Source: Verrucomicrobiota bacterium
GTDB lineage: Bacteria > Verrucomicrobiota > Verrucomicrobiia > Verrucomicrobiales > Verrucomicrobiaceae
Reading direction: 5' to 3'
Assembly: GCA_017301975.1 (NCBI GenBank)
Contig: JAFLEI010000001.1
Location: forward strand, 124,001 to 188,000
DNA length: 64,000 nucleotides
Position 1 is the first letter of the stretch. Each line of letters begins with the position of its first letter. Position numbers and translations under genes: made by a program. Below, piece by piece: positions 27,538 through 36,468 of this stretch. The notes beneath the pieces are model-generated. The model had not been told where the DNA came from. It saw only the letters and a program-made list of their open reading frames with translations, and did no database searches.

Positions 27538-27620
27538 GGGCCCCTGAACGGCAGCGGCAGGCGCGAGATTGCATGATTTCAGCATCGACAGCCGCAAACG
27601 AAGCCGCTTTGATCGGGCGC

Positions 27621-28445
27621 ATGTCCCGGCTTTTCCTGATTCTTCCCTTTCTGAGCGTCGTTAGCTTTGCCGCTGATGTGGCCATCAAGCCTGGTGTGCG
27701 TTCGCCGATCACCTTCCAGGTTTCGCCGCAGGTGTCTGACAATGCGCAGATCAAGATGCGGATGCATGCGATGGAAACGCCGCCGCCCTACGACGTGAGC
27801 CTGGAGAAGTTCGACATCATCGTGCCGAAGAAGTACAAGAAGGGCGATCCGCATGGGCTCTTCATCTGGGTGAGTCCGAGTCCCGCGCCTTCGATCTCAC
27901 CGGAATGGGAGGCTGTGCTGGCTGAGAAGAAACTCATCTTTGTGGGTGCACACAATTCAGGCAACAACCGCGAAGTTTTTGCCCGCATGCGCATGGCCGT
28001 GGATGCGAACGACAACATGCGTGAGCTCTACGACATCGATGACAAGCGTGTCTATGTCTCGGGATTCTCGGGTGGTGCGCGAGTCGCCAGCATGCTGGGA
28101 GTGACGTATGCGGACATGTTCACCGGCGCGATTGCCTTCATGGGGGTGAATTTTTACACCGACATTGTCACCCTGGACAAAACAGAGGTCTTTGAGGCGC
28201 GGTATATTCCGCATGAGGAGATTGCCGCGCTGGCGAAGGACCAGTGCCGTTATGTGCTCGTGACGGGAGAGAAGGATTTCAATCTCAAGAACACGAGCGC
28301 GGTGTTTGAAAACGGCTTTAAGAAAGAGGGGTTCAAAGCGGTGGAGCTGATGAATGTGCCGGGGCAGGGCCACCAGCCGCCGAAGGCGGAATGGCTCAAG
28401 AAGGCGATTGAGTTTCTGGATGCGGGGAAGACGGTGAAGAAGTGA
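27621..28445 (+). CDS. Secreted alpha/beta-hydrolase (esterase/PHB-depolymerase-like)
   Basis: From the ATG at 27621 the protein has about 274 residues with signal peptide MSRLFLILPFLSVVSFA. The nucleophile elbow is YVSGFSGGARVASMLG (G-x-S-G-G), preceded by FIWVSPSPAP and an oxyanion-type region. A late GQGHQPPK supplies a possible catalytic His. Family relatives are annotated as esterases or peptidases of the PHB-depolymerase group. The substrate is unknown. Its stop codon touches the stop of the serpin remnant on the other strand (TGATCA). Confidence 0.78.
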   Translation: MSRLFLILPFLSVVSFAADVAIKPGVRSPITFQVSPQVSDNAQIKMRMHAMETPPPYDVSLEKFDIIVPKKYKKGDPHGLFIWVSPSPAPSISPEWEAVLAEKKLIFVGAHNSGNNREVFARMRMAVDANDNMRELYDIDDKRVYVSGFSGGARVASMLGVTYADMFTGAIAFMGVNFYTDIVTLDKTEVFEARYIPHEEIAALAKDQCRYVLVTGEKDFNLKNTSAVFENGFKKEGFKAVELMNVPGQGHQPPKAEWLKKAIEFLDAGKTVKK

Positions 28446-28545
28446 TCAGCGTGGGTCGTTCACGCGGCCCAGGAAGAGGCAGGCTCCGCTTACCGTGTGC
28501 TGGATGGCGAAGAGGAAGGGGCGGTCGGCTTTGATCTCGACAGGG
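28446..28545 (-). pseudogene. Serpin C-terminal remnant
   Basis: Read on the reverse strand, the last 33 codons before the TGA at 28446-28448 give IPVEIKADRPFLFAI, then QHTVSGACLFLGRVNDPR. This is the classic C-terminal block of serpins: the ADRPFLF-I-H breach/strand region and the LFLGRV-DP end. A TGA stop precedes it in frame at about 28546, and the remainder of a serpin (about 350 residues) is absent. The gene was therefore truncated, most simply when the three-gene island at 28569-31958 arrived. Confidence 0.82.
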
Positions 28546-28568
28546 ATTCAAACTTGGCTTCCAGCAGT

Positions 28569-29504
28569 CTACTCGATCAACACAATGTCTCTGGCCGGAT
28601 CAAGCTTGAAGTCCGTAGTCCCGGGCTGGTAACGCGCGATCTCTTGTTCCCATCGTTTTTTCTCCATGAGCATAATCGGGGTGGTTTCGTTGGGCTCGCC
28701 CTCATCCCAGCCATGATCAATTTGAATCCCACCACGGTCGGTCAGCAGATAGCGCGGGTGCATTTTCTCCCGACCTCTGGTCCACAGATGCACTTTCAGA
28801 CTCCACCCCGTCCTGAGCAAGGGACTAAGTTTCTTCTTCATTTCATCGAGGGTGAAACTGGGTTGATCGAAATCATTCGGAGTCTTTTCATCAGGGTTGC
28901 GCACATGCAGTTCAACTTCGCGGACCACCGAACCCTCGGTATGCAGCCGGTCGAGCATGGCTTCCAACACATCGCAAAATCGTGTTTTGCGAGGGTTGAA
29001 GTGCGGCTCCACGAGCTTCACGACCTTTGAATCACGCAGCAGAGGCCAGACACTGTCCACAATCACGTTGGATCGCCGCTGGATGGTGCGCTGCGTCTCA
29101 GTACTGAATTTCGGATCGCGCACATACTCATGCTCCTCATCTGCGCGGATAGCGTTCGCCGCCTCGATCTCTTGATCAGACAAGATGGCGTCGAATGCCT
29201 TCTGATTGTCTTCAGCGTTCAGATGCCAGTCTTTGTTCCCATCGTATGCCAACTTGCAGGACACCATGCGTGAGTCCGGAGCACCCATGGGGGCCTCCAG
29301 CCACCTTCGCAGGCTCTGGGCCTTCACAGGCCCGAGCTCTCCACTGGCTTCCAGGCGGTTCACTTCTTCCCGCACATGGCCGCGCCACTTTTTGGGGAAG
29401 GCTGAGATCACACGGCCTTTCTCCACACCAAAGGCGTCTCGCAGCAAAAGATGATGCGGCCACTGGGCAAATAATCTCGGGTCGAGCGCTATCTCCTTGA
29501 TCAT
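28569..29504 (-). CDS. Phospholipase-D/MIT_C-like effector candidate of the ATPase operon
   Basis: A 311-residue protein that I do not recognise as a whole. The C-terminal region has WSLKVHLWTRGREKMHPRY, then LLTDRGGIQIDHGWDEGE. This resembles the phospholipase-D-fold MIT_C pattern, in which an H-x-R/K is followed by a D-R-G-G strand turn. The N-terminal half is helical and charged, with WRGHVREEVNRLEASGEL. The gene starts 9 bp after the ATPase stop. I infer it may be a nuclease or lipase effector controlled by the ATPase. The fold call is tentative. Confidence 0.6.
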   Translation of the reverse strand: MIKEIALDPRLFAQWPHHLLLRDAFGVEKGRVISAFPKKWRGHVREEVNRLEASGELGPVKAQSLRRWLEAPMGAPDSRMVSCKLAYDGNKDWHLNAEDNQKAFDAILSDQEIEAANAIRADEEHEYVRDPKFSTETQRTIQRRSNVIVDSVWPLLRDSKVVKLVEPHFNPRKTRFCDVLEAMLDRLHTEGSVVREVELHVRNPDEKTPNDFDQPSFTLDEMKKKLSPLLRTGWSLKVHLWTRGREKMHPRYLLTDRGGIQIDHGWDEGEPNETTPIMLMEKKRWEQEIARYQPGTTDFKLDPARDIVLIE

Positions 29505-29513
29505 GGGAGAGTG

Positions 29514-31325
29514 TTAAAAAAGTTCAGCACTGCGTTCCGCAAAAAAGCCACCAGGCCACGGAACAGCGAAGTCACCATCAGCAGTCACCGGAAGTTCGAT
29601 TACTTCACTTCCGTTTTCTCCCGGTTGCACATAAAGCACTGCCACATCTTCCGGTCGAATTGGCGTCTTGCCATCTTGAAGCGTGTTGTCGTTGGTTTCA
29701 CGAATCCGGCGCATTACACGCAGGATCAAATGCTCGCTGTGGGTTTCGATGAGGAAACGATTCCCCCGTTCCTTCGCCGACTGGATGAAAAGGTCCGCCA
29801 GTTCAGTTTGCAGGGCTGGATGAATGTGAAGTTCTGGCTGTTCGATTGCGATCAGACGGTTCTCTGAACCAAAAGCCGACGTCACAAGTGGCATCATCTG
29901 GCTGAAGCCAATACCCATGTTTGATGGCGATACACCCTTAGTGGACGTCAAACCATAGAAGTGAACTTTGGCTGAGTCGAACCCCCCCCCCGTTTTTGTT
30001 CGATTTCTTTGTCGGACTGTTTCCAGCTTGCCCCGTAAGTAGGTCAAGGTTTGATTCAGTCCGCCGAGCAAAAATGATTCAATTTCATCTACGTCTGAAT
30101 TATCTTGAAGAGATTTGTAATGAGCCAGTCCGAGCTGCCAGCAGTCATTATAGACTGCATCGTGAGCATTTTGACGTGCCACGGATTTCCGTTCGTCTTT
30201 ATCCTCGTATTCATCTTCAAGGTTTTGCTCCATGTCAAAAGCCACAGGTTCAATGACTGATTCATAGAACTGCTCATCGGAGTTCAGTTTGGCTTCGAAA
30301 GCTGTTTCGACTAGCTGATCTATATTGGGCACTTCCGAAAGAGATTGAAGCAGTTCTTTAAGTGTTGAGTCAGGGAACAGCCGTTCCAACTCGAGCCGAT
30401 ACTTGGTTTTGAAAATGTCGCTTGCCAGCCAGACATTCACCTTGGCGAGCAGTTCGGGCTCTGCTGCGAGGCTCCACCACTCCGCTACACCCGGCTCTTC
30501 AAGTTGTGCTTTAGTGATAACATCACAAATGGGTCGAATAGGCCCATGATAGATGAGTTTGGTCAGCGCATCTCTCACAGAGTCATCGACCATCTTAATT
30601 TGCGTGGTCATCGTCAAATTGATTGAATCGACGGCAGTTTTGATTTTCCTCATCCATGCGGCACCTAGCTCGGTGGACTTTCCTTGTCGGTGCTGCTCTT
30701 CGAGTACACTCAATAAATCTATTTCATCTTCCTTGCTGTCCTCAGCCCTATAGTGGTCTGCATCCGCCCCTGGTAGAGCCATATTCTTTTGAAGGGCTAA
30801 CCGGTTCTTGATCGTTCTATGAACCAGATCATCAAGCCTGTGTTCGGTGTCCGATTCCAACTTTGCAGAATCCATGATTTGGCTAAGCTCATCGCTCAGG
30901 TTTTTGATCCTAAGATGTTTCGAACTAAGATTGCCAGAATAGGTTACCACCTCGGACTGATTCTGCTTCAACGACAAAGCTACCGTTTCAAGGCCACCAC
31001 TGGATGAATTCTCTCTCCATGCTAGGCCGAGTTCGAAAATTTTCTCCTCTGCTTTGCCATCCAGGTGCACGGTGAATCCAAAGGAAATGGGATTCGTGTT
31101 TCCATTTCGAACAATGTCGGCATAGGGGCCAGGATGGCGTTCGCCAGCGGCATCACTTTTGGATAGCCTGCCATTTAATATGGCATGCTGCGCGACTAGC
31201 AGGGATCGCAGGAGCGAAGATTTGCCGGCGCTGTTCGGACCAAAAATCAAGGTGAGGGGCTTTAGTGGCACACGTTGAGGTGTGCTGAATGCTTGATAAT
31301 TGCCGATGGAGAATTCGGTAAGCAT
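29514..31325 (-). CDS. AAA-type ATPase, OLD/RecF-like with DUF3696-type C-terminus
   Basis: A 603-residue ATPase. The Walker A motif is LIFGPNSAGKSSLLRSLL (about residues 27-44). The ABC-like signature region is SNMGIGFSQMMPL, Walker B is LIAIEQPELHIHP, and the switch is LIETHSEHLILR. The end, WPGGFFAERSAELF, matches the DUF3696 ending found in defence-associated ATPases. A large helical insertion lies at about residues 120-430. Base composition is markedly lower in GC than its surroundings (21 of 60 bases at 30061-30120), suggesting transfer. It is tightly packed between two unknown genes. Confidence 0.85.
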   Translation of the reverse strand: MLTEFSIGNYQAFSTPQRVPLKPLTLIFGPNSAGKSSLLRSLLVAQHAILNGRLSKSDAAGERHPGPYADIVRNGNTNPISFGFTVHLDGKAEEKIFELGLAWRENSSSGGLETVALSLKQNQSEVVTYSGNLSSKHLRIKNLSDELSQIMDSAKLESDTEHRLDDLVHRTIKNRLALQKNMALPGADADHYRAEDSKEDEIDLLSVLEEQHRQGKSTELGAAWMRKIKTAVDSINLTMTTQIKMVDDSVRDALTKLIYHGPIRPICDVITKAQLEEPGVAEWWSLAAEPELLAKVNVWLASDIFKTKYRLELERLFPDSTLKELLQSLSEVPNIDQLVETAFEAKLNSDEQFYESVIEPVAFDMEQNLEDEYEDKDERKSVARQNAHDAVYNDCWQLGLAHYKSLQDNSDVDEIESFLLGGLNQTLTYLRGKLETVRQRNRTKTGGGFDSAKVHFYGLTSTKGVSPSNMGIGFSQMMPLVTSAFGSENRLIAIEQPELHIHPALQTELADLFIQSAKERGNRFLIETHSEHLILRVMRRIRETNDNTLQDGKTPIRPEDVAVLYVQPGENGSEVIELPVTADGDFAVPWPGGFFAERSAELF

Positions 31326-31337
31326 GTGATGCAGCGG

Positions 31338-31958
31338 TTAAGATTTCACGGTTTGCTTTTTCAGGATTTCGACATGGACGGAACTGGGCGGCAAGCCTAG
31401 CAGTGCTTTGATTTCGTTGATTTGCTCCGCCTTGTGTTCCGTGGATGTGTTCGTATTCACGAACCAGCCCGTACTGCCAATGCGGTGATGGCTGTATGCC
31501 TCTCCCTGTTTCGGATTCATGAAGTCGCGCAGCGGAGTTTGTGAAACGAGAGCATTCTTCAAAACACGAATGGCTTGAATTCGTGGCAGCACATCCGAGC
31601 CGAGAACTTCGATGAGTGTTTGGATAAAGCGAACCAGAGAAGTGGCTGCTTGGGGCTCATCAATGAACATCTCCGGACGGTCATGACCTGCGGTACGCCA
31701 GTTGATCGTGATGCGAAGGCGGGTTTGCGGCTCTTTGGTTTGCTCAGCTTTCGTGAGCGCGTCCAAAGCGTTTATCTGCTGCTGCCAGTCGCGACGGGCT
31801 GTGATCAGGCTGTCCAAGACACTGCTAAGCGGTTTCAGCGCCGCAGTGATCGCTGAGACTTTGGCCATATCACCAGCAATGGCTGCTGTTGCGATGGCCT
31901 GCCGGGCCGCCGCGTCTGCGGACTGGGTTTGGGTCTTCCAAGTTTGAATGTCGCTCAT
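31338..31958 (-). CDS. Unknown first gene of the ATPase operon
   Basis: A 206-residue protein with an Ala/Gln-rich helical N-terminus (QTQSADAAARQAIATAA) that probably forms a coiled coil to about residue 95. A mixed alpha/beta C-terminal domain follows, with LRITINWRTAGHD and GSTGWFVNTNTSTEHKAEQI. I recognise no family. It ends 12 bp before the ATPase start, so the three genes appear to form one transcript. It could be a sensor or adaptor subunit. This is inferred from position only. Confidence 0.68.
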   Translation of the reverse strand: MSDIQTWKTQTQSADAAARQAIATAAIAGDMAKVSAITAALKPLSSVLDSLITARRDWQQQINALDALTKAEQTKEPQTRLRITINWRTAGHDRPEMFIDEPQAATSLVRFIQTLIEVLGSDVLPRIQAIRVLKNALVSQTPLRDFMNPKQGEAYSHHRIGSTGWFVNTNTSTEHKAEQINEIKALLGLPPSSVHVEILKKQTVKS

Positions 31959-32010: not shown

Positions 32011-32036
32011 TCATGTAGCATGATTACACAGTCATG
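32011..32036. promoter_or_regulatory. Inverted-repeat operator candidate between the ATPase operon and the LysR gene
   Basis: TCATG-tag-CATGA (32011-32023) is followed eight bases later by TCATG (32032-32036). This gives two overlapping dyads in the 75-bp divergent promoter region and overlaps the LysR start codon. Such arrangements fit a LysR-type autoregulatory site. Confidence 0.5.
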
Positions 32037-32951
32037 TTCAAACATCTAGCCAACCAGTCCGGCCTATCCCTCGAACGTCTCGCCTCACTTTGCGAGGTGG
32101 CGGAAGCGGGGAGCATCGGGCAAGCTTCGCGCGGGGATGTGAACAAGCAGAGCCAGCTCAGCCGACAGATCGCTGAGCTCGAGGCAGTGTTTGGCGTGGA
32201 GCTGCTGGCGCGTCAGAGCAGGCCCTTCCGCCTGACGGCTCAGGGGAAGGAGCTGGCACAGGTGTCCCGGCAGTTTTTCCAGTCGGTGGATGATCTGCAA
32301 AAGCAGGCGGGCGGTGAGGCGCAGCGAGTGGTGGTCGGCGCGGGTGAAACGCTGATCCAGTGGCTGCTGTTTCCGGCCTGTGAAGCGATGCAGAAGCAAA
32401 CCACTGGAATCGTCTTCGCCTTCAAAAATCTGGACAGTGCAAGGCTGGTGGATGGTCTGCAAAAAGGCGAGGTAGATTTTGCGCTGATCCGTAAGGAAGA
32501 AGTGCCGCCGAGCCTGATGCATGCGGGTGACTGGCTATATTCGCATGTCGCCTTCGTGCCGAAGGCGCTGTCACGCATCACCACCGAATTAAAGATAGAA
32601 GAATTGGCGAGGCTGCCCTGGGCGGTACTGGAGGGGCAAGGACACTTTCGGCAGTTCTTGGAGAGCAAGGCGCGTGCGCAAGGCATCAAGCTTAATGCCG
32701 CGCTGGAGTGCTCCTCTTACACGCAAGTGGCAATGGCGATCCAGACCGGGCGCTATGCAGGTTTTTTGCCAGCGTTCGCCATGGACGCGGCCTTTGCCCC
32801 AGGTTCCGCCATTCTCCAGCGCCAGACTGAAAAGGGATTGCGGTATGAGCGCAAGCTGACGCTGGCATGGCGCGAGGCCACGACAAGGGCCAGGCCGATT
32901 GTGGAAAAACTGATCCCTGCCATAAGAACGCAGCTTGGGAAAATTCTATGA
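32034..32951 (+). CDS. LysR-family transcriptional regulator
   Basis: A 305-residue LysR-type protein. The N-terminal winged helix has LERLASLCEVAEAGSIGQAS, then SQLSRQIAELEAVFGVELLARQSRPFRLTAQGKEL. The C-terminal effector domain (about residues 95-300) includes VGAGETLIQWLLFPACEAM and VDFALIRKEEVPP. It diverges from the three-gene ATPase operon across 75 bp. LysR regulators commonly control the divergent neighbour, so it may regulate that operon. The effector is unknown. Confidence 0.9.
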   Translation: MFKHLANQSGLSLERLASLCEVAEAGSIGQASRGDVNKQSQLSRQIAELEAVFGVELLARQSRPFRLTAQGKELAQVSRQFFQSVDDLQKQAGGEAQRVVVGAGETLIQWLLFPACEAMQKQTTGIVFAFKNLDSARLVDGLQKGEVDFALIRKEEVPPSLMHAGDWLYSHVAFVPKALSRITTELKIEELARLPWAVLEGQGHFRQFLESKARAQGIKLNAALECSSYTQVAMAIQTGRYAGFLPAFAMDAAFAPGSAILQRQTEKGLRYERKLTLAWREATTRARPIVEKLIPAIRTQLGKIL

Positions 32952-33012
32952 AACGGCTCAAGCGCTGCTGAGCGAATTGATGTTTGTCTTTGAATAACCA
33001 AGGCTGGCCCGC

Positions 33013-34497
33013 TCAGTCCTTTCGCTTCAGCTGCGGGAAGAGGATGACGTCGCGGATGCTTTCGGCGCCGGTGAGCATCATGATGAGGCGGTCGATGCCG
33101 ATGCCGATGCCGCCGGCGGGGGGCATGCCGTGTTCAAGGGCGAGGATGAACTCTTCGTCGATCTTCTGAGTCTCTTCACCGGCCTGGTGCTCCAGGCGCT
33201 CGCGCTGGACGATGGGGTTGTTCAGTTCGGAGTAACCGGGGCTGATTTCCTGGCCGTTGATGATGAGTTCGTAGACGTCGACGATGGAGTCGTCGGAGGA
33301 GTTCTGCTTGGCGAGAGGGACGAGTTCTTTCGGGCAGTGGGTGACGTAGAGGGGATCGAACTGCTTGGCTTCGATGAGGCGTTCGAAGACGTGCTGGGTG
33401 ACTTCGTAGTCTTCGAAGTTGGCTCCGATTTCGACGCCGAGTTCCTTGGCGCGGGCTTTGCGCTCTTCGGGGGTGTATTCATACCACTTGGGATCGACGC
33501 CTTTGAGGAGGTCGGTGTAGCGGGCACGGCGCCATGGGCGGGAGAGGTCGATGGACTTAGTAACGGCGCCTTCTTCGTCCTTGTGCTCGATCTTGAGACC
33601 GCCGCAGAAGTTTTCGGCGAGGTGGCAGATCATGCCTTCGACGAGGTCGGCCATTTTTTCGAAGTCGGCGTAAGCCCAGTAGGCTTCGAGCATGGTGAAC
33701 TCGGGATTGTGACGGCGGCTGAGGCCTTCGTTGCGGAAGTTGCGGTTGAGTTCAAAGATCTGCGTGAAGCCGGCAACGAGCAGGCGCTTCAAGTAGAGCT
33801 CCGGCGCGATGCGGAGGAACATCTGCTGGTTCAGCGCGTGGAAGAAGGTTTCGAAGGGCTTGGCTGCGGCGCCGCCGGGGACGTCCTGCATCATGGGGGT
33901 TTCGACTTCGAGGAAGCCGCGTTCCTGCATGTAGCTGCGGATGGCGGCGACCATCTTGCTGCGGGTCACGAAAATCTCGCGGCTGCGGTCATTGGAAATG
34001 AGGTCGAGGTAGCGCTGACGGTACTTGATCTCCTTGTCGGTGACGCCGTGCCATTTGTCGGGCAGGGGGCGCAGGGCCTTGGAGAGGGGGGTGAGCTTTT
34101 TGACGTGGATCGAATTTTCGCCGCGCTTGGTGACGAAGGTGAAACCTTCCACGCCGACGAAGTCGCCGATGTCGATGAGCTGATTGAACTGGACGTAGGC
34201 TTCGTCGCCGACGTCGCCTTTGCTGAGGTAGCACTGCATGCGGCCGGTGATGTCGCCGATGTCAAAGAAGGTGGCCTTGCCCATTTCACGACGAGAGAGG
34301 ACGCGGCCTGCGACGCTGACCTGAAGCTCTTCAAACTGGGACTTCATCTGCTCTTTCAGAGCGCCGGGCTGATGCGTGGTGTCGAAGCGACCGCCGAAGG
34401 GATCGAGGCCGGCCTTCACCAGTCCGTCGAGCTTTTCGCGGCGGAATTGGAGGAGTTCGGACTCGGAATGTTCTGGGGCTGCGGGCGTCGGTTGCAT
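33013..34497 (-). CDS. lysS: Lysyl-tRNA synthetase, class II
   Basis: From the ATG at 34497 the protein has 494 residues. The N-terminal OB-fold anticodon-binding domain (VSVAGRVLSRREMGKATFFDI) precedes the class II catalytic core. Motif 2 is FRNEGLSRRHNPEFTMLEAYWAY and motif 3 is GGIGIGIDRLIMMLTGAESIRD, each split here only by description. GNAPG-type upstream sequence in the longer reading is not conserved, so the shorter start is preferred. It charges tRNA-Lys with lysine and is essential housekeeping, which helps fix the right edge of the accessory island. Confidence 0.97.
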   Translation of the reverse strand: MQPTPAAPEHSESELLQFRREKLDGLVKAGLDPFGGRFDTTHQPGALKEQMKSQFEELQVSVAGRVLSRREMGKATFFDIGDITGRMQCYLSKGDVGDEAYVQFNQLIDIGDFVGVEGFTFVTKRGENSIHVKKLTPLSKALRPLPDKWHGVTDKEIKYRQRYLDLISNDRSREIFVTRSKMVAAIRSYMQERGFLEVETPMMQDVPGGAAAKPFETFFHALNQQMFLRIAPELYLKRLLVAGFTQIFELNRNFRNEGLSRRHNPEFTMLEAYWAYADFEKMADLVEGMICHLAENFCGGLKIEHKDEEGAVTKSIDLSRPWRRARYTDLLKGVDPKWYEYTPEERKARAKELGVEIGANFEDYEVTQHVFERLIEAKQFDPLYVTHCPKELVPLAKQNSSDDSIVDVYELIINGQEISPGYSELNNPIVQRERLEHQAGEETQKIDEEFILALEHGMPPAGGIGIGIDRLIMMLTGAESIRDVILFPQLKRKD

Positions 34498-34648
34498 GGT
34501 CGTACGGATGAGTGGGCCGTGTTCATAGCCGTTTCCGGGCGCATTGCCACTGCAAAAGCCGCTCTTGGAGCCCCGGGGGGGAGAAGCGCGCATCCCTCAC
34601 ATGGCTGGGCAATTGCCAATCCATTGAGGACCGCTATCATCCAAGCGC

Positions 34649-35470
34649 ATGAAGCTGTTGATCACGTTGTCTCTCGTCCTGGTGGTTTTTTCCGGTGCGC
34701 TGGCTGCCCAGGAGATTCAAAAATTTGCCACGGACATCACGAACATCACGTGGGATCTGCGTGGCACCGCGAATCTCAAGCATCTGCGATTTGACGGCAA
34801 AAAATTCTGGTCTCTCAATCAAGATGGAGAGCCGCAGAGCGCATTTGAGCACAGCTTGATCGATGAGGGTGTCTTTCGCTTTGATTATGGCAAATCGCGG
34901 ACAGGCTGGTATTTGGTGACGGATGATCTGAAGCAAGTCATGTCGGCTTATGTGGTCCAAGAGATCACTTTCAAACCGGAGAAAAGCGGCGAGGCCAAAG
35001 CCGTGAAGGATTTTCCCCAGGACATCAAGAGTGTGGTCTGGGTCGGTGAGCGGGACAATCTTCCCGCCAAGCTGCGCTGGAACGGGACCACTCTTGAGGT
35101 GGGAGTGAAGGATCCGCACTGGCAGGTGAATTTTGTGCAGCCGGTCATCGCCAACCGGCGGACCTTGGAGTTTCAACTTGGTAACAAGACGACGGTCTGG
35201 CTCGTCTTCTCAGCCGATGGCTCCAAGGCTTGGTGGCTGACGATCACGGATGTTTTTGGTGGACATCGTTCCGGACTTTACACCGCTGACACCCAAGCCC
35301 CCGGGCTCAACCCGCGGCTCAATGATCTGGCCAATCATGCCGAGGATCTGATGAAAGCAGACCACCCGATGACCGCAGCGACACTGGTGCGGGAAATGGA
35401 ACGCAAATGTGGTGGTGATGCAGAGCTGCTGGGGCAACTGCAAGCGCGCTTCGAGTCTCTGAAGCGGTAG
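34649..35470 (+). CDS. Secreted protein of unknown function, tandem paralogue 1
   Basis: A 273-residue protein with signal peptide MKLLITLSLVLVVFSGALA. Its conserved opening is FATDITNITWDLRGTANLKH, and the middle has DFPQDIKSVVWVGERD and KLRWNGTTLEVGV. The end is helical, with LNDLANHAEDLMKAD. The next gene (35623-36468) shares all of these blocks, so the pair arose by tandem duplication. WDLRGT and LKHLRFDG suggest a beta-sandwich of lipocalin-like character, but I do not recognise the family. Confidence 0.75.
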   Translation: MKLLITLSLVLVVFSGALAAQEIQKFATDITNITWDLRGTANLKHLRFDGKKFWSLNQDGEPQSAFEHSLIDEGVFRFDYGKSRTGWYLVTDDLKQVMSAYVVQEITFKPEKSGEAKAVKDFPQDIKSVVWVGERDNLPAKLRWNGTTLEVGVKDPHWQVNFVQPVIANRRTLEFQLGNKTTVWLVFSADGSKAWWLTITDVFGGHRSGLYTADTQAPGLNPRLNDLANHAEDLMKADHPMTAATLVREMERKCGGDAELLGQLQARFESLKR

Positions 35471-35622: not shown

Positions 35623-36468
35623 ATGAGAGCGCTGCATTCCGTTTTTCTTTTTCTCTTCGTTTCCGCCAGTCTTGCCCAAGGGCAGCAAAAGGAATGGCCT
35701 GAGGTGGAGAAATTTGCCGCCTCGATCACGAACGTACTGTGGGATCTCCGTGGCACGAATTCGCTCAAGCACCTGCGATACGATGGTGAGAGCATTTTCC
35801 CGGTGACGGGGAATGGCATGAATCAGAATCCCTACAAGGAGCATGCCTTTGTGGATGCGGGTGTGTTCCAGCTTGTTTTCAGCGACACCCGGGCTGCGTG
35901 GTATTTTGTGAGTGATGACTTGAAGCTCATCACACCGGTCAACATCACTGAGATGGTGGAGTTCAAGGCCGAAGCGGGGACGGTGATCAAACCGGTGAAA
36001 AATTTTCCGCAGGACATTCAAAACGTCGTCTGGGTGGGCAGGAATGAGAAGGCGGAACTCAAGCTGCGCTGGAACGGGAAGGAGCTCGAAGTGGGGGCGA
36101 AGCAGGATTCGTGGATCGTGCAGAAGGTGGATGCCGTGGTGGCGAACCGGCGTGTGCTGGAAGCAGGCGGCGAAGGCAATGTTTTATTCTGGCTGGCCGT
36201 TTCCGAAGATGGCTCCGAAGCGACCTGGCTGACGGTTGACAGCATTTTTGGAGGGCATGCGCATGCGAATCCTGGCAAGGCAGCCCAGACTGCTGCAACC
36301 ACCGGTCTGTCTCCTCAGCTCAATGATCTGGCCAACCACGCGGAGGACCTGATGAATGCGGGGGATAAGATGCGTGCCGCGACGCTTCTGCGTGAACTGG
36401 AACGCAAAAGCGCGGGCAACAAGGAGGTGCTCAAAAAGCTGCAGGTCCGCTTCAAGGCGCTGAAGTGA
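35623..36468 (+). CDS. Secreted protein of unknown function, tandem paralogue 2
   Basis: From the ATG at 35623 the protein has 281 residues with signal peptide MRALHSVFLFLFVSASLAQG. It repeats the first paralogue's blocks: FAASITNVLWDLRGTNSLKH, NFPQDIQNVVWVGRNE, KLRWNGKELEVGA and the helical LNDLANHAEDLMNAG. An ATG at 35605 is an alternative start. A family C palindromic element begins three bases after the stop. Confidence 0.75.
   Translation: MRALHSVFLFLFVSASLAQGQQKEWPEVEKFAASITNVLWDLRGTNSLKHLRYDGESIFPVTGNGMNQNPYKEHAFVDAGVFQLVFSDTRAAWYFVSDDLKLITPVNITEMVEFKAEAGTVIKPVKNFPQDIQNVVWVGRNEKAELKLRWNGKELEVGAKQDSWIVQKVDAVVANRRVLEAGGEGNVLFWLAVSEDGSEATWLTVDSIFGGHAHANPGKAAQTAATTGLSPQLNDLANHAEDLMNAGDKMRAATLLRELERKSAGNKEVLKKLQVRFKALK

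Follow-up and report, generated by a model that had tools for sequence, protein, structure and literature searches.

A serpin remnant marks the edge of a four-gene block in a Prosthecobacter-type genome

Three described systems lie close to the locus analysed here. Bacterial secreted inhibitory serpins (PF00079) carry a hinge motif that is associated with working serpin inhibitors (PMC8233489). For type VI effector arrays and Rhs loci, gene displacement that leaves 3' remnants has been proposed (PMC5361080). Finally, the Menshen system, which contains the ATPase NsnB, has a DUF262 component (PMC10952713). We analysed a 64,000-nucleotide stretch of a Verrucomicrobiota bacterium (contig JAFLEI010000001.1, positions 124,001 to 188,000; hereafter the window), in which a piece of a serpin gene borders a block of four genes that includes an ATPase (ATPase603).

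The serpin piece corresponds to the canonical C-terminal segment of the secreted inhibitory serpins, but it keeps only the last 33 codons and has lost the hinge and the reactive loop, so that it cannot act as an inhibitor. As in the type VI and Rhs loci, a horizontally acquired module appears to have displaced a resident gene, the 3' part of which remains; here, however, the displaced gene is a serpin rather than an effector, and we saw no homologous anchor tract. We use this nearest published parallel as an analogy. In comparisons with the Menshen NsnB, PDC-M55A and AriA/OLD-type ATPases of PADLOC, the best matches of ATPase603 were NsnB (7.5e-41, over part of the protein) and PDC-M55A (1.6e-38). 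Despite the NsnB-like ATPase, we rejected membership in Menshen, since none of the four genes of the block encodes DUF262; the block also differs by an added LysR-family regulator. Membership in the OLD-family nucleases was also rejected, because ATPase603 has no match to the C-terminal TOPRIM domain.

The serpin remnant

In minus-strand translation, the remnant reads V*IPVEIKADRPFLFAIQHTVSGACLFLGRVNDPR*, with its codons at 28449-28547 and its TGA at 28446-28448 (Table 1). The first-pass annotation had described it as the C-terminus of a serpin, preceded by a stop and deprived of the rest of the gene, and each part of this description was borne out. The fragment matched positions 338-370 of PF00079 in Pfam (31.4 bits, E 5.5e-7), above the curated cut-off of the family, and residues 365-397 of PAI-1 in a phmmer search of PDB sequences (E 1.2e-6), which listed many further serpins. 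The C-terminal signature FxADRPFLFxI...GRVxxP is present. With the intact serpin of a relative (G021) as the tblastn query, residues 393-424 aligned to 28544-28449 with 81% identity (E 5e-13), and no further part of that serpin was detected in the window. The full-length fold of about 370 residues, including the reactive-centre loop, is thus absent, as only positions 338-370 are represented, and the remnant is the sole serpin match of Pfam in the 6.9-Mb genome.

A TGA closes the reading frame directly ahead of the remnant, which contains no ATG, GTG or TTG up to a GTG five codons ahead of its stop. In an alignment of serpin 3' ends, the nearest tails were those of G021 and G034, each sharing 87 of 102 bases with the remnant. 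The differing codons (synonymous/non-synonymous) were 5/6 between the remnant and G021, 4/7 between the remnant and G034, and 7/3 between G021 and G034. The changes on the side of the remnant are therefore mostly non-synonymous, as expected once function was lost; with about 11 codons behind it, this excess does not reach significance by itself. Taken together, the remnant is a non-functional serpin scar and a real match rather than a chance one.

Table 1 Features of the esterase/asnS locus in the window.
Feature	Position	Strand	Description
Esterase-like gene	27573..28445	plus	Conserved left flank; stop directly abuts the serpin stop
Serpin 3' remnant	28446..28547	minus	Last 33 codons and TGA; untranslated
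Left junction	28545..28548		End of serpin homology; last shared codon is a CCN proline (3'-end alignment, tblastn)
ORF311	28569..29504	minus	Partner of the ATPase; no Pfam, PADLOC or NCBIfam family
ATPase603	29514..31325	minus	AAA_15/AAA_21 ATPase with DUF3696-like C-terminus
ORF206	31338..31958	minus	41% identity to the gene occupying this position in G015 and G054
LysR-family regulator	32034..32951	plus	Divergent from the ATPase operon
Right junction	33013..33015	minus	Coincides with the asnS stop codon, where blastn homology to the relatives restarts
asnS	33013..34593	minus	Asparaginyl-tRNA synthetase gene; conserved right flank

The ancestral locus and the edges of the block

In same-genus relatives, the gene order is sulfatase (minus), esterase (plus), serpin (minus) and asnS (minus), with the serpin stop abutting the esterase stop and a gap of about 35 bp between the serpin and asnS upstream of it. 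A full-length serpin occupies this site in G021, G048, G030, G045, G051, G023 and G024, the esterase being on a different contig in G048 and G021, and a 15-kb insert separating the serpin from asnS in G024. At the N-terminus, the intact orthologous serpins have a putative signal sequence, and they contain the inhibitory hinge E-K-G-T-E-A-A-A-A. The first-pass annotation had regarded bacterial serpins as not widespread, which does not hold in this family, where 33 of 68 genomes carry them. In a tree based on rpoB, asnS, esterase and sulfatase, the closest relatives of the window's genome are G037 and then G041 (support 90-92).

Several other features of these loci were observed. The serpin of G037 (L085:8062-9291) is diverged from its neighbours, with 62% identity to that of G021. 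In G024, the gene next to the intact serpin encodes a 3014-a.a. protein (L103:7242-16286) that contains a subtilase as well as DUF11 and fn3 domains, and the two may form a protease-inhibitor neighbourhood. Beyond asnS, the window contains a tandem pair of related uncharacterised genes (34649-35470 and 35638-36465, about 47% identical), and a copy of the former is found in G037, while more distant ones adjoin asnS in other relatives.

Comparison with the relatives that keep an intact serpin, as the first-pass annotation had proposed, placed the left edge of the block at the truncation point. On the right, blastn homology to the relatives restarts at 33012-33025, and at 33017 in the closest ones; the sequence just before the asnS stop varies between genomes. 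Consequently, 4.46 kb (28549 to about 33012) stand in place of all of the serpin but its last 33 codons. The "ATPase island" of the first-pass annotation is therefore not the ATPase alone but four genes including the LysR regulator, reaching to the asnS stop. Its reported distance of 24 bp from the serpin break was accurate, except that the gene met there is ORF311, with the ATPase lying behind it. The left and the right flank keep synteny with one and the same pair of closest relatives, G037 and G041, making a chimeric contig or assembly unlikely.

Searches at the edges returned no integrase or transposase, and no repeat pairs the two edges. Since the window contains no tRNA, no edge repeat and no second copy of the asnS 3' end, an insertion-sequence, tRNA or direct-repeat origin was rejected. 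Identity to the relatives is even along asnS and esterase, with no donor-like tract in asnS, and the import of a homologous tract with asnS was rejected. As we also found no copy of the module adjoining asnS elsewhere, a homology-facilitated route is unproven.

Composition and distribution of the block

In ATPase603, AAA_15 extends up to residue 534 and is followed by a DUF3696-like part to residue 597. The ORF311 proteins keep H-x-R-Y and [DE]-[PR]-x-F motifs across three phyla; a profile search of PDB sequences gave no match, and the predicted structure was too poor to use (mean pLDDT 50). Neither ORF206 nor ORF311 had a convincing PADLOC family match. The LysR regulator of the block is about 70% identical to the LysR proteins beside related ATPases in G015, G054, G036, G040 and G055.

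The identical four-gene order recurs in G015 at an unrelated place, between an EamA transporter and a cytochrome-c/HEAT protein. In G054, the ATPase, ORF206 and LysR are present and ORF311 is absent, and G036, G040 and G055 have ATPase variants with 70-74% identical LysR proteins. A species-genome scan found close relatives of the ATPase only in two Verrucomicrobiaceae MAGs, one of them labelled Prosthecobacter debontii. Viral contigs hold no relative of the block, and a viral origin was rejected on this basis. The GC content is 0.47 inside the ATPase as compared with about 0.60 in the flanks. This low GC, together with the presence of the block elsewhere in relatives, indicates that the block is foreign to the esterase/asnS site and, as judged from its distribution and composition, mobile.

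Azotobacter and Methylocella plasmids carry diverged relatives of the ATPase-ORF311 pair immediately after restriction-modification genes, and such relatives are also found on a Deinococcus plasmid. Given the association with restriction-modification genes on two plasmids, the pair most likely represents a mobile module of the defence type, and the block is probably an anti-phage module by the same association. More tentatively, and with somewhat less than an even chance of being right, the DUF3696-type ATPase, ORF311, ORF206 and dedicated divergent LysR may constitute an undescribed mobile defence system with a two-gene core common to Verrucomicrobiota, Pseudomonadota and Deinococcota, and the esterase/asnS gap may be a cargo site where the block competes with the serpin.

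Probable course of the replacement and its meaning

We consider it highly probable that the scar at 28446-28547 arose when the four-gene block replaced the serpin in the esterase > < serpin < asnS locus. In the ancestor, the serpin was probably read behind asnS, given their close spacing. The block, comprising the ORF206-ATPase-ORF311 operon and the divergent LysR gene, would then have taken over the convergent esterase/asnS gap, replacing about 1.2 kb that comprised the serpin from codon 1 to about codon 390 together with the spacer as far as the asnS stop. A break within the serpin, just past the reactive-centre region, would explain why the last 33 codons were left. From the edges, which lack an integrase, a transposase and a direct repeat, we infer an illegitimate or one-sided homology-facilitated exchange. 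Located between the 3' ends of two genes, the site tolerates such turnover.

The first-pass annotation had read the truncation as the mark of the island's arrival. The edge of the block does coincide with the break, but serpins have also been lost from this site where no island is present. In G041 and G047, a serpin tail of 8 codons is followed by shared non-coding sequence without a module, demonstrating that truncation needs no island and leaving the order of events unproven. In addition, the site has no serpin in G042, G033, G059, G055, G027 and G022, the serpin is broken by an internal TGA in G037 and by a frameshift near the N-terminus in G034, and serpin presence or absence at the site needs at least 8 changes on the tree. 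Since serpins were recurrently lost without the module, the remnant alone is no proof that the module destroyed the serpin. All of these losses lend a substantial, though minority, chance to a course in two steps, in which an ordinary deletion left a serpin tail and the module inserted later into the decayed spacer. However, the stop of the module's last gene and the serpin break are only 24 bp apart, and nothing else remains between them; the tail in the window is longer than that of G041 and G047 and hence not derived from their deletion. The short distance makes a single replacement the simplest account, in which the island likely caused the truncation. As a separate observation, G041 and G047 are non-sisters on the tree and have the same 8-codon tail and palindrome-rich non-coding DNA (L086:11137-11606, L087:7830-8039), suggesting exchange of the locus between species.

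A route that we regard as improbable is site-specific integration into the 3' end of asnS and a subsequent deletion into the serpin. Inserts in G021 (77 and 27 bp; L094:1633-1709 and 289-315) and G024 (57 bp; L103:7116-7172) are flanked by partial direct copies of this end, as expected from elements that make use of the 3' end of a gene, which hints that some lineages have had a point of insertion here. The window, in contrast, has no second asnS copy and no repeat on the serpin side, and an integrase is found neither in its block nor in the examined genes of the G024 insert. It is also barely conceivable that the remnant persists as a functional small peptide: its residues stay near the serpin consensus, but the upstream TGA, the lack of a start before the last few codons and the excess of amino-acid changes against both G021 and G034 speak against it. 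Replacement of the serpin by the four-gene block thus remains our preferred reading.

On its own, the scar dates nothing; it is an ordinary displacement scar in a Prosthecobacter-type bacterium, with a moderately interesting neighbour. It yields exact edges for a candidate defence module and, together with the relatives, defines a small genomic site with repeated loss of a secreted protease inhibitor and the arrival of other cargo. In this genus, serpins are dispensable accessory genes.
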